A DNA stretch of 64,000 bases from the NCBI GenBank assembly GCA_944392965.1, contig CALXYM010000004.1, forward strand, positions 62,001 to 126,000, written 5' to 3'. The notes under the pieces are model-generated. The model searched no databases. It was not told where the DNA came from and saw nothing but the letters and a program-made list of their open reading frames with translations. The position numbers and the translations under genes were made by a program. Shown here piece after piece: positions 4,949 to 56,002 of this stretch. Each line of letters opens with the position of its first letter. The first letter of the stretch is position 1. Source of the DNA: an uncultured Spirochaetaceae bacterium. Its GTDB lineage: Bacteria > Spirochaetota > Spirochaetia > Sphaerochaetales > Sphaerochaetaceae.

Positions 4949-6067
4949 CTAACGTTTCAGAAAAAAGCATAACGCATTTACAGCATTGACATCTCCCTTC
5001 ATCTCCGTCTCTATTTCCTCCGATATTATATACCTGTATTCCGCTTTTATATCCCTGAGGGCTTCCAGTCTTGAATTAATGTCCTCTCCTCTGTTGACCA
5101 CCTGATAGATTTCTTTCTCATAATCAGAAAATGCTATGAAATCTGCTTCTATGCCATAATAAAGGCTGTCTGAACGTCTGAGCAGCTCAATGGCGACCAT
5201 GTTCTCCAGCATCATAGGATTATCATCACACTGACTCAGATGATTAAGAAAATAGTTATCCGTCATATAGTATTTTCTCCCATCCGTGAGGAACTCATCA
5301 TTCTTCTCATCATATCCGGTAATGCTTGCTATGATATTCATGTCCTCAAGAGATGAGAGGATATCTTTTACAAGTCTTTTCTCCATTCTCATCTTGAATG
5401 AAATATCATCTACAGAGAGGATTCTACCGATATTGCAAGCTATAAGGATAAGAATACTTTCAGTAAGGGAGCGGGCAATCCCCTTCTCTTTCTTTATATA
5501 GTTCTTTATCTCCCCTATCCTATCCAGACAGACACTGAAATAAACCTGCTCAGAATGATTCTTCCCTATTACGGCGATATCATTCAATGATTTCTTGAAT
5601 ACATCATACAGCTCGGTCGTTCCAAGATATCGGAATATCGAGCATTCCCTGTATTCAGAGAAAGAAAGGGGATATAAGGGAAAAAAGTTTATGCAAACAG
5701 ATGTACCGCTTCTATCAGTCACAAAGGATGAAGACCTGCAGGTCGCATATATGGATGCATTGAAAAATCTTGCAAGGTAGAGTATGAAATCAGTCTTTTC
5801 TCTGCTCTCATCAATGTCATCCACAAGAAAAAAAGAACGGGGATGAAAAAAGAAATCATCAGATGTATCAAAAGCTCTTTTAAACTCATCAAAAGAACCA
5901 GCATCTATAATTCTTACATTAGCCCTTCCTGCAGAGCAGAGAAGTTCTTCATAAAGAAGATGTAATAAAGTTGTTTTTCCTGATCCTCTGCCACCCCTGA
6001 TGAGCTTAAGCCCCCTGACCTCCCTGGCTCTCATCAGTCGCTGAATATACAAAGCCCTTTTTAACAT
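4949..6067 (-). CDS. AAA ATPase of the DUF4143-like family
   Basis: A 372-residue P-loop ATPase. Walker A is GGRGSGKT at residues 25-32, Walker B is FFLVDDID at about 79-86, and a sensor-like YATCRSS follows. The centre looks like a winged helix (ISFKMRMEKRLVKDILSSL), and the C-terminus has a PD-(D/E)XK-like nuclease vestige: EADFIAFSDYEKEIYQVVNR. This architecture is shared with the DUF4143 ATPases, whose role is unknown. A second member of the same broad group is at 52584-53873, with a different Walker A (GVKWCGKT). The family is often found in accessory DNA of spirochaetes and Bacteroidetes. Confidence 0.75.
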   Translation of the reverse strand: MLKRALYIQRLMRAREVRGLKLIRGGRGSGKTTLLHLLYEELLCSAGRANVRIIDAGSFDEFKRAFDTSDDFFFHPRSFFLVDDIDESREKTDFILYLARFFNASIYATCRSSSFVTDRSGTSVCINFFPLYPLSFSEYRECSIFRYLGTTELYDVFKKSLNDIAVIGKNHSEQVYFSVCLDRIGEIKNYIKKEKGIARSLTESILILIACNIGRILSVDDISFKMRMEKRLVKDILSSLEDMNIIASITGYDEKNDEFLTDGRKYYMTDNYFLNHLSQCDDNPMMLENMVAIELLRRSDSLYYGIEADFIAFSDYEKEIYQVVNRGEDINSRLEALRDIKAEYRYIISEEIETEMKGDVNAVNALCFFLKR

Positions 6068-52583: not shown

Positions 52584-53873
52584 TTAAGGAGCCAAAAGTG
52601 AAATAGGTACTTCATAAACACCATCATCTCTTAGTCTGGCATATTTTCCAGCTGTTATCACCATCATAAAAGAGGGCTCCTTCATGTGCATATAATCCAT
52701 CTTTTCCTTTATTTTTATAAGATTCTTTGCTCCCTCATCGATTCGCTTAGGATCAAAAAGTTTTACTTCGAACATTGCCCAGCGTTGATCCCTCAATTCC
52801 ATTACGGCATCCGCTTCAAGGCCTTTCGAATCTCTATAATGATAGATGGAAGCATTCAATGCACTTCCATATACCCGTAAATCTTTAATTACGAATGACT
52901 CAAAAAGAAATCCAAACGTTCTAAAATCTTTTAACAAGACGCTAGGAGAAAGTCCAAGGGAAGCTACTGCAAGTGAAGGTTCAGAAAACTGTCTTGTTGG
53001 ACTTCCTTGAACACGTACTTTTGATCTCACATAAGGGGACCAAGCATCTACATCCTCTGTTATGAACATCGATTCGAGTAATGAAAGGTATTTAATCAAT
53101 GTATCGTCATTGAATAAGACATCCTCACTTTGGCTCATATCCTTTCTTATCAGACTTCGAGAGGCCTGGGTAGAAATATTCCTAGAATAAGAACGGATCA
53201 ATCTTCTCACATCACTTGGATTTTTTCTCAATCCAAGTTCCTCCATTTTCCTTTGAACATCTATATTTATCAATTCATCAAGCAGAACATAAGGAATTTC
53301 TAACGCATCTTCATCACTGTCATCAATACAGGCTGGCCATCCTCCCTTACATAATGCTAAAGCGACATCTTCCAAAGTACGATCTGAATGCTCACTGATA
53401 TACTGCTTACCATCATCAAATAATTTAGAAAGAGATATTTTACCATAAGAAAAACCAGTTTCGAAGGAGCTCATTGTATGCATTGTGAGGTTTGCAATAC
53501 GTCCAAACCCTGAATGAAAAATCTCTTTTCTCTCATTCTCATCAAGGGGAGTGGAAGAACCTGTCAGTATAAACTGTCCTCTTTTTCCTCTCGCATCAAC
53601 CTCTCTTCTTACAGCATCCCAAAGCCGTGGGGCATTCTGCCATTCATCAATAAGCAACGGAGCTTCCCTGTTGAGAATCTCAGAAGGCATGGTGTTGGCG
53701 AATTTAATAAAATCCTTTCCCTCTTCTGAATTATCAAGACATACCTCTGAATTTGAAACTTGCCTAGCCGATGTCGTCTTTCCACACCATTTAACCCCTG
53801 TAACTAAAACTGCACCCGACAGCCTTAACAGTTTTTTTAATTGCTGGTCAGACACTCTTTCCTTATAATCCAT
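52584..53873 (-). CDS. DUF4143-family AAA ATPase
   Basis: A 429-residue ATPase. Walker A is GVKWCGKT (about 26-33, with the family's usual WCGKT), Walker B is LLIDEWQNAP, and ILTGSSTPL is the sensor region. DUF4143 follows from about residue 190, and the end has the nuclease-like DSKGLEADAVMEL and AMFEVKLF (the D-ExK pattern). These proteins are widespread in accessory DNA and their function is unknown. Three exact-length 23-bp repeats lie 32 bases upstream (53905-53973). It is monocistronic, between the broken glycosylase gene and the permease. Confidence 0.85.
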   Translation of the reverse strand: MDYKERVSDQQLKKLLRLSGAVLVTGVKWCGKTTSARQVSNSEVCLDNSEEGKDFIKFANTMPSEILNREAPLLIDEWQNAPRLWDAVRREVDARGKRGQFILTGSSTPLDENERKEIFHSGFGRIANLTMHTMSSFETGFSYGKISLSKLFDDGKQYISEHSDRTLEDVALALCKGGWPACIDDSDEDALEIPYVLLDELINIDVQRKMEELGLRKNPSDVRRLIRSYSRNISTQASRSLIRKDMSQSEDVLFNDDTLIKYLSLLESMFITEDVDAWSPYVRSKVRVQGSPTRQFSEPSLAVASLGLSPSVLLKDFRTFGFLFESFVIKDLRVYGSALNASIYHYRDSKGLEADAVMELRDQRWAMFEVKLFDPKRIDEGAKNLIKIKEKMDYMHMKEPSFMMVITAGKYARLRDDGVYEVPISLLAP

Positions 53874-53904
53874 GAGAAAATTATAAGTGATGTTTTTTTT
53901 TCTG

Positions 53905-53973
53905 TCTAGTACGGAACTTTTTCCATATCTAGTACGATATTTTCACCATATCTAATACGAAACTTTTCCCATA
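53905..53973 (+). repeat. Three tandem 23-bp direct repeats before the DUF4143 gene
   Basis: Units at 53905-53927, 53928-53950 and 53951-53973 each start TCTA(G/A)TACG and end CCATA, with an A/T-rich centre. They are contiguous with no spacer. The minus-strand gene starts at 53873, so the array covers its promoter region and could be a set of binding sites. Confidence 0.9.
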
Positions 53974-54001
53974 TTAGGTTTAAAATATTGTTTTATAGGG
54001 T

Positions 54002-55432: not shown

Positions 55433-56002
55433 ATGATTGAAAAAAGAGCGTATGAGAAGGCCTCGCTGGAGGTCATGGAAATCGATTCAGAGGAGTTCTT
55501 GAAAGGGGAATACGGAGAAGATGCGAAAGCGAAAATTCTCAGGATAATCGAAATAGAGGCCCCGATTACGGAATCATTACTCGCAAAAAGGCTCATAAAC
55601 AGTTACGGAATAAAAAGGCTGGGATCAAGCCTCTCTGATTACTTTTCCTCCCTGATAAAGGAACTGGAGGAAGAAGGGAAGCTGAAAATGGAAGCCGTTG
55701 CGGGTGAGAACGTGTTCCATAAGAATGATGATTCTTCCTACTTCCGCCCTACCCCTGAGGATCCGGAGGAGATAAGATACTCATACCAGATACCGGTCTC
55801 AGAAGCCCTTAACGTAATAACCTATATTCTTGAGACAACGGGAAAGAAATACACGAAGAAGGCCCTGCTTGTTGAGTTTTCCAAGGAACTCGAATATCAG
55901 AGGAAAGGTAGCCAGGTAGTCTCTCTATTCAATAAGGCTTTTGAGGAGGGAAAGAAGAGAGGAGTGATTAGGAAAAACAGCAGTGGTAAATTCTCTCTTT
56001 GA
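55433..56002 (+). CDS. DUF3320-like winged-helix protein
   Basis: A 189-residue protein whose centre resembles the DUF3320 domain found at the end of some superfamily I DNA/RNA helicases: IIEIEAPITESLLAKRL, then SYGIKRLGSSLSDYFSSL and a second winged-helix-like repeat at residues about 120-189. No helicase is present here, so it is an orphan domain. No signal peptide. It lies between the divergent permease (123 bases upstream) and the PLP-protein promoter. Role unknown. Confidence 0.6.
   Translation: MIEKRAYEKASLEVMEIDSEEFLKGEYGEDAKAKILRIIEIEAPITESLLAKRLINSYGIKRLGSSLSDYFSSLIKELEEEGKLKMEAVAGENVFHKNDDSSYFRPTPEDPEEIRYSYQIPVSEALNVITYILETTGKKYTKKALLVEFSKELEYQRKGSQVVSLFNKAFEEGKKRGVIRKNSSGKFSL

Follow-up and report, generated by a model that had tools for sequence, protein, structure and literature searches.

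The DUF4143 gene and its upstream repeats

The window, i.e., the whole stretch of DNA analyzed here, comprises 64,000 nucleotides of an uncultured Spirochaetaceae bacterium (GCA_944392965.1, contig CALXYM010000004.1, positions 62,001-126,000 of the forward strand). Profile matches from Pfam and PADLOC place an AAA_14-DUF4143 gene of the PADLOC type PDC-S01, coding for a 429 amino acid protein, at 52584-53873 on the minus strand. Its ATG is separated by 31 bases from an array (53905-53973) of three 23-mers that adjoin each other and start at 53905, 53928 and 53951; Tandem Repeats Finder reports this array at 53905-53974 with a period of 23, 3.0 copies, 78% matches and a score of 91. In the register that is common to the family the units lie at 53947-53969, 53924-53946 and 53901-53923 (minus strand; -96, -73 and -50 from the ATG), and 53901-53969 and 53905-53973 are one array in two registers. 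A preliminary description of this DNA had noted three contiguous units of equal length whose ends are conserved and whose A/T center varies, as both the sequence and Tandem Repeats Finder confirm, and had taken them for more than random repetition. This view was borne out, as the direct-repeat score upstream of the gene (21.3) is matched by none of 100 dinucleotide shuffles and by none of the controls, which were 114 upstream regions, all intergenic and taken from the same genome. A CRISPR array was considered and dropped: such an array has constant repeats with unique spacers, whereas the 23-mers of the window are contiguous, without unique spacers, and their free part is about 8 bp long and A-rich.

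The window protein clears the Pfam gathering scores for AAA_14 (98 bits against 28.1) and DUF4143 (53.5 bits against 27), and the PADLOC PDC-S01 model PDLC04790 matches its residues 3-427 (E 5.7e-54); no NCBIfam match was found for the three proteins searched. In the Walker A region (residues 26-33; 53775-53798, minus strand) G26, K28, G31 and K32 are invariant. The AlphaFold2 model of the protein (pLDDT 94.2) contains an ATPase core and a C-terminal sheet that bears D355, E369 and K371. In our reading of the model and of the family, the helices 219-231, 239-247 and 256-268 may form a winged helix-turn-helix, and the AlphaFold2 model together with covariation predicts a winged-helix region at residues 219-268 (53070-53219, minus strand) with residues 256-268 as the recognition helix. 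A PD-(D/E)xK-like core with E353, D355, E369 and K371 is predicted at residues 341-371 (52761-52853, minus strand) from alignment, model and covariation; among 61 sequences D355, E369 and K371 are invariant and E353 is nearly so, and these are the conserved D...(D/E)xK residues. The model of the nuclease domain (pLDDT 87.1) places residue 349 in a hairpin turn, and its best Foldseek matches include McrC, MspJI, Can2, Card1 and EndoMS, none with E below 0.001, while for residues 1-322 the structures 2qen and 2fna lead, followed by NLRs and CED-4. The protein is modeled as an ATPase with a STAND-like AAA+ core, a winged helix and a C-terminal PD-(D/E)xK-like nuclease domain.

A promoter is predicted next to the array. 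Its -35 hexamer, TAGACA (53903-53908, minus strand; a consensus match only), lies in the spacer of the last unit, and its -10 hexamer, TATAAT (53880-53885, minus strand; likewise a consensus match), follows at a distance of 17 bp. With TATAAT ending 6 bases ahead of the start codon, the mRNA of the window gene is predicted to have little or no leader. The same can be seen in the family, where the best predicted -10 falls at -15 to -10 from the ATG in 35 of 53 members, against 23 of 114 controls, and a Shine-Dalgarno-like stretch is present in 8/53 genes, against 56/114 controls. In most members the array stops at the predicted -35 or a short way upstream of it, leaving the -10 and the start uncovered, and in many genes the predicted -35 is overlapped by the last unit. 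By these consensus predictions the promoter looks leaderless, and the array reaches its -35. An RNA leader element was dropped as a candidate: transcription is predicted to start at the ATG or close to it, which would leave the array outside the transcript, on its upstream side.

Arrays before other DUF4143 genes

The genome that contains the window has 27 DUF4143 matches, two of them in the window itself. Reading of the upstream DNA revealed that many of these genes are preceded by a short tandem repeat, with a different sequence each time, and 11 of the 27 upstream regions score above all 114 controls (rank test P 1.4e-6). The repeat offsets cluster at 22-23 (or 44-46) and at 32-34 (or 66), which is about two or three DNA turns. 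When 464 kb (19% of the genome) were scanned without bias for tandem offsets of 21-25 or 31-35, 11 matches passed the score; three of them are outside open reading frames of at least 150 amino acids, and all three are directly upstream of DUF4143 genes, the window gene included. The scanned 464 kb hold eight DUF4143 genes, five of which have no array at the score of the scan. No array was detectable at the second DUF4143 gene of the window (L026; domain at about 5132-5476, minus strand, 372 amino acids), whose domain match is weak (34.8 bits). Some of the 27 copies may be decaying: one gene (L007, G000:C5:106799-107257) is broken by a TGA inside the domain, and two others (L019 and L001) appear truncated. 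In a class-level relative (G031) a single genome contains 42 DUF4143 matches.

A tree that was built with 179 nonredundant genes of this genome and its relatives indicates that the array architecture follows the subfamily, when genes scoring above the highest of the 114 controls are counted. At offsets 21-24 this is the case for 55 of 60 genes of the window type, and at offsets 31-34 for 27 of 38 genes of a type with 435-460 amino acids, for 5/9 of a third DUF4143 type and for 3/14 of a type with 385 amino acids. The canonical type reaches 9/58 at offsets 21-24 and 6/58 at 31-34; within its last 100 upstream bases an inverted repeat exceeds the control 95% point in 25 of the 58 genes and the control maximum in nine, and in a sample of the phylum, read by eye, these palindromes sit over the promoter, spacer and -10. 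We regard the link between architecture and subfamily as strong in two subfamilies and as moderate in the rest.

With a fixed threshold that was derived from 114 promoters of the own genome only and applied to genomes of other G+C, a tandem array is found at the equivalent place in 185 of 198 window-type relatives, which belong to several bacterial phyla and to the archaea. The period is 23 in 175 of these arrays, 24 in nine and 22 in one. The set consists of named genomes, further genomes of the phylum and viral contigs, after three of 201 genes were dropped for short upstream DNA. In the first set the array is present in 53 of 60 window-type genes, and the threshold is reached by 0/114 controls. 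The named organisms contribute 80 loci (Spirochaetes, Firmicutes, Bacteroidota, Actinomycetota, Fibrobacter, archaea and others), and 74 of the 78 with enough upstream DNA have an array, every one with period 23. Plasmid copies have the array in 5/5 cases inspected, of nine found, and viral contigs in 5/5 tested, of seven found; for example, two Collinsella plasmids from different countries encode proteins with 421 of 422 residues equal and carry an identical array.

Thirteen of the 198 genes are without a detectable array; at least two of these have start codons that were apparently wrongly chosen, and three come from a clade with inverted repeats. Another of the thirteen, a close ortholog (G009, 82% identical), has no array in the roughly 167 upstream bases available. 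Some clades differ in form: L225, L226, L227 and L229 have units in alternating orientation, i.e., inverted repeats that are not head to tail, and L137, L139, L141, L223 and L224 have a period of 24 bp instead of 23 bp. At L144 eight nearly identical 23-bp units were counted in the 200 bases before the start.

Unit sequences and their relation to the protein

When all arrays are set in one register, the consensus unit reads GCCAA, followed by a variable core, AA and an A-rich spacer. At positions 10-13 the copies within an array agree at 0.91-0.97 but units of different genes at only 0.34-0.61, and disagreement between genes divided by disagreement within arrays gives ratios of 6-17; at positions 17-19 this ratio is about 1, and copies within an array agree no better than the units of different genes. 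A like contrast is seen in the 27 arrays of the subfamily with 32-33-bp units, with ratios of 4.5-8.2 at five of the seven positions 8-14. This pattern is that of a putative private recognition core.

The similarity of the units tracks the identity of the proteins (Mantel r 0.70, reached in 0/2000 permutations; 53 arrays of the genus set). Between proteins that are 70-95% identical, the units are.73-.78 similar, while the 60 bases of flanking DNA that adjoin the array upstream are only.45 similar. Because most orthologs of the window gene are located at different genomic sites, this co-divergence is not mere synteny. Paralogs that share a genome form 32 pairs, with a top protein identity of 51% and a top unit similarity of 0.61; that none of these pairs exceeds 70% identity is not significant (about 0.18), since only 75 of all 1378 pairs do.

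A search of the own genome for single units, allowing up to three mismatches, returned the window array only and no second address, and the unit-pair pattern of the window occurs in 7 of 48 genus genomes, where it accompanies orthologs of the window gene or stands at one of two solo sites. The preliminary description had suggested an array of operator sites, and in this it was mostly right: the suggestion is well supported by arrays at the same place throughout the family, by their abutting a predicted promoter and by a conserved core beside a free spacer. What did not stand is the idea of one shared sequence, as other DUF4143 genes do not have the same repeat; the architecture is conserved and the letters are private to each gene. 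The array is therefore found only here as far as its letters inside the own genome are concerned, whereas its architecture is widespread. The copy number varies, with two or three units among close orthologs of the window gene.

Covariation between protein and unit was analyzed in 154 of the 185 arrays, 31 having been dropped for a weak register, a protein of at most 400 amino acids or no P-loop match. In these 154 genes mutual information points to two residues: 257, located where the predicted recognition helix begins, pairs with unit positions 12, 10 and 11, and 349, in the hairpin of the predicted nuclease domain, pairs with unit position 2. For the null, neutral evolution of the units was simulated 300 times on the protein tree; all four pairs are above its family-wise 95% point (0.285), and the best score (0.468) is above the maximum of all 300 simulations (0.399). 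At residue 257, D goes with CCG in 32/55 genes, R with ACT in 7/8, K with GG in 16/25 and N with C at position 12 in 12/16, and K at residue 349 goes with C at position 2 in 79/80. An unstratified change test also places residue 257 first of 342 columns for unit positions 11 and 12. A pair-change test on 77 independent pairs, stratified by identity, gave r 0.44 for residue 257, which is not significant over 4788 comparisons; the mutual-information test against simulations was added after this null result because it takes in which letter changes and not merely whether one does. Sliding-window partial Mantel correlations singled out no protein segment as the reading domain.

Turnover of genes and arrays

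The permease that neighbors the window gene is common to only one of seven orthologs (G045), and in flanks of up to 1.5 kb the neighbors of the window gene do not recur at the other six. Solo arrays, which lie between convergent genes and without an adjacent window-type gene, are found at L153 1482-1554 (G061) and at L150 1501-1551 (G016). At the window's permease site in G017 one unit is left and the gene is absent, and no DUF4143 remnant was found beside this leftover unit; beside the solo array of G061 there is one weak tblastn match (25% identity, E 5.6e-4). The permease site in G062 has a unit-like stretch that is followed by another ATPase-like gene, as judged by eye. Gene and array behave as one unit that comes and goes.

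Model and alternative explanations

A mechanism that fits these data, and to which we give a probability of roughly 0.75, is that the three units are a private operator array that is read by the DUF4143 protein encoded just downstream and by which this protein controls its own promoter. The array, its position, its private core, the co-divergence with the protein and the covariation with predicted DNA-reading residues were computed, and from these we infer physical binding, an oligomer on the array, autorepression and any role in defense. Self-recognition would be the best-supported reading of the sequences, and autoregulation is suggested by where the array lies, next to the promoter predicted for the gene itself. 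Most likely, one protomer would occupy each 23-bp unit, with the start of the recognition helix contacting positions 10-12 and the nuclease-domain hairpin contacting positions 1-2. The A-rich spacer would set the 23-bp register so that neighboring protomers are in touch, and the resulting oligomer, beside or over the -35, would control the gene's own, usually leaderless, promoter. With a different core sequence for every paralog, many members of the family could share one cell without mutual silencing, and gene and array could be transferred as a single cassette.

The direction of this control is a matter of judgement, and we consider repression more likely than activation. In the case of activation, which we hold to be possible but rather unlikely, the protein would sit upstream of or against the -35 and recruit polymerase, and the array would be an autoactivation switch. 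An array that mostly ends at or just upstream of the -35, with the -10 and the start left free, would suit an activator no less than a repressor; yet the last unit of many genes extends over the predicted -35 (in the window, TAGACA lies inside unit 3), and the palindromes of the canonical subfamily, which by eye cover the spacer and the -10, have the geometry of a repressor site.

Another option is that the array is mainly a recombination or nuclease target of a mobile cassette and not a transcriptional operator. Orthologs and their arrays do occupy different sites, with G045 alone of seven keeping the permease neighbor, G061 and G016 have gene-free arrays, G017 and G062 have single leftover units at the permease site, and copies are carried on plasmids and phage-like contigs. 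However, the own genome has no second array at the other end of the gene, the position relative to start codon and promoter is constant across phyla, and loss of the gene would equally leave solo arrays; altogether we find this option improbable. A separate host regulator that binds the repeats is more doubtful still. Regulators in general typically have direct repeats close to promoters, but one shared factor would be unable to read all of them because each gene's core differs; moreover, the core follows the DUF4143 protein and the residue in its recognition helix, and the window neighbors are absent at six of seven orthologs (flanks up to 1.5 kb). Finally, although some arrays are nearly perfect and long (eight copies at L144), it is hardly conceivable that they are functionless relics of replication slippage, since slippage homogenizes whole units and in these arrays a fixed core stands beside a free spacer; moreover, 175 of the 185 arrays share period 23 over several phyla, and none of 114 control promoters has such an array.

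Relation to known systems

The window protein matches PDC-S01, i.e., AAA_14 plus DUF4143 (COG1373), over its full length and in both Pfam domains. PDC-S01, in which an ATPase is joined to a PD-(D/E)xK domain, is described as the fourth most common defense of prokaryotes, with 9986 archaeal and 29,494 bacterial cases, and experimental validation is pending for most such defense candidates (PMC12988326). The words direct repeat, operator, promoter, autoregulat and upstream region do not occur in the main text of that paper. In a rumen set PDC-S01 is reported as the most frequent individual locus (PMC13356809). Searches of the open-licence literature, preprints aside, found no report of such arrays before DUF4143/PDC-S01 genes, and DUF4143 came up by name in a table row on Thermus. 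Compared with PDC-S01 as described, the new element is the private arrays, which are putatively read by the protein.

Among solved structures, the model of residues 1-307 comes closest to two archaeal STAND-type ATPases: 2qen (PAB2304; Z 14.6, 5.0 Å, 260 aligned) and 2fna (SSO1545; Z 13.5, 4.5 Å, 256 aligned). Their sequence identity to the window protein is 17%, they leave the C-terminal nuclease domain uncovered, and we know of no operator array for either of them. Iterons and origin repeats are read by initiator proteins such as Cdc6/Orc1, DnaA and RepA, and the likeness lies in an ATPase with a winged helix on short repeats; the Foldseek matches of the window protein include Cdc6/Orc1 on origin DNA (2qby). 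Unlike iterons, the DUF4143 repeats are chromosomal and stand at a fixed place before the start codon and promoter of their own gene, and one genome has many DUF4143 genes with a sequence of their own each. In autoregulated toxin-antitoxin operons and in the immunity groups of phage repressors the DNA-binding protein is self-encoded, as proposed here for DUF4143, and the operators are diversified, whereby co-resident relatives can avoid cross-regulation. In contrast to these, DUF4143 appears to be a single gene that combines ATPase and nuclease, and in the window subfamily its operators would be tandem and not paired.

A wider and more speculative proposal, which we make tentatively, is that PDC-S01/DUF4143 proteins are self-addressed ATPase-nucleases. 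Each cassette would carry an address of 2-8 tandem units as the sole place where its protein assembles. This address would then work like an immunity group that silences incoming cassettes with the same address and tolerates others by the dozen, and would hold the nuclease off until it is released, for example by invading DNA that titrates or remodels the assembly. If self-addressed reading is true, one of the most common candidate defense families would consist of orthogonal, transferable and self-regulating switches with a readable protein-DNA code. A private address for each gene also provides a biochemical handle, namely a binding DNA, changes that can be made on both sides and solo arrays as gene-free sites, by which a widespread protein family of unknown function becomes directly testable. 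The arrays offer a natural set of well over a hundred putative protein-operator pairs with a partly legible code, and possibly an explanation for the coexistence of dozens of paralogs in a single small genome.

Another PADLOC match in the window is an open reading frame of 189 amino acids with a DUF3320 domain at 55433-56002 on the plus strand, which looks like a fragment or a stand-alone end because it matches only positions 1385-1541 of the 1550 of PDC-S37.
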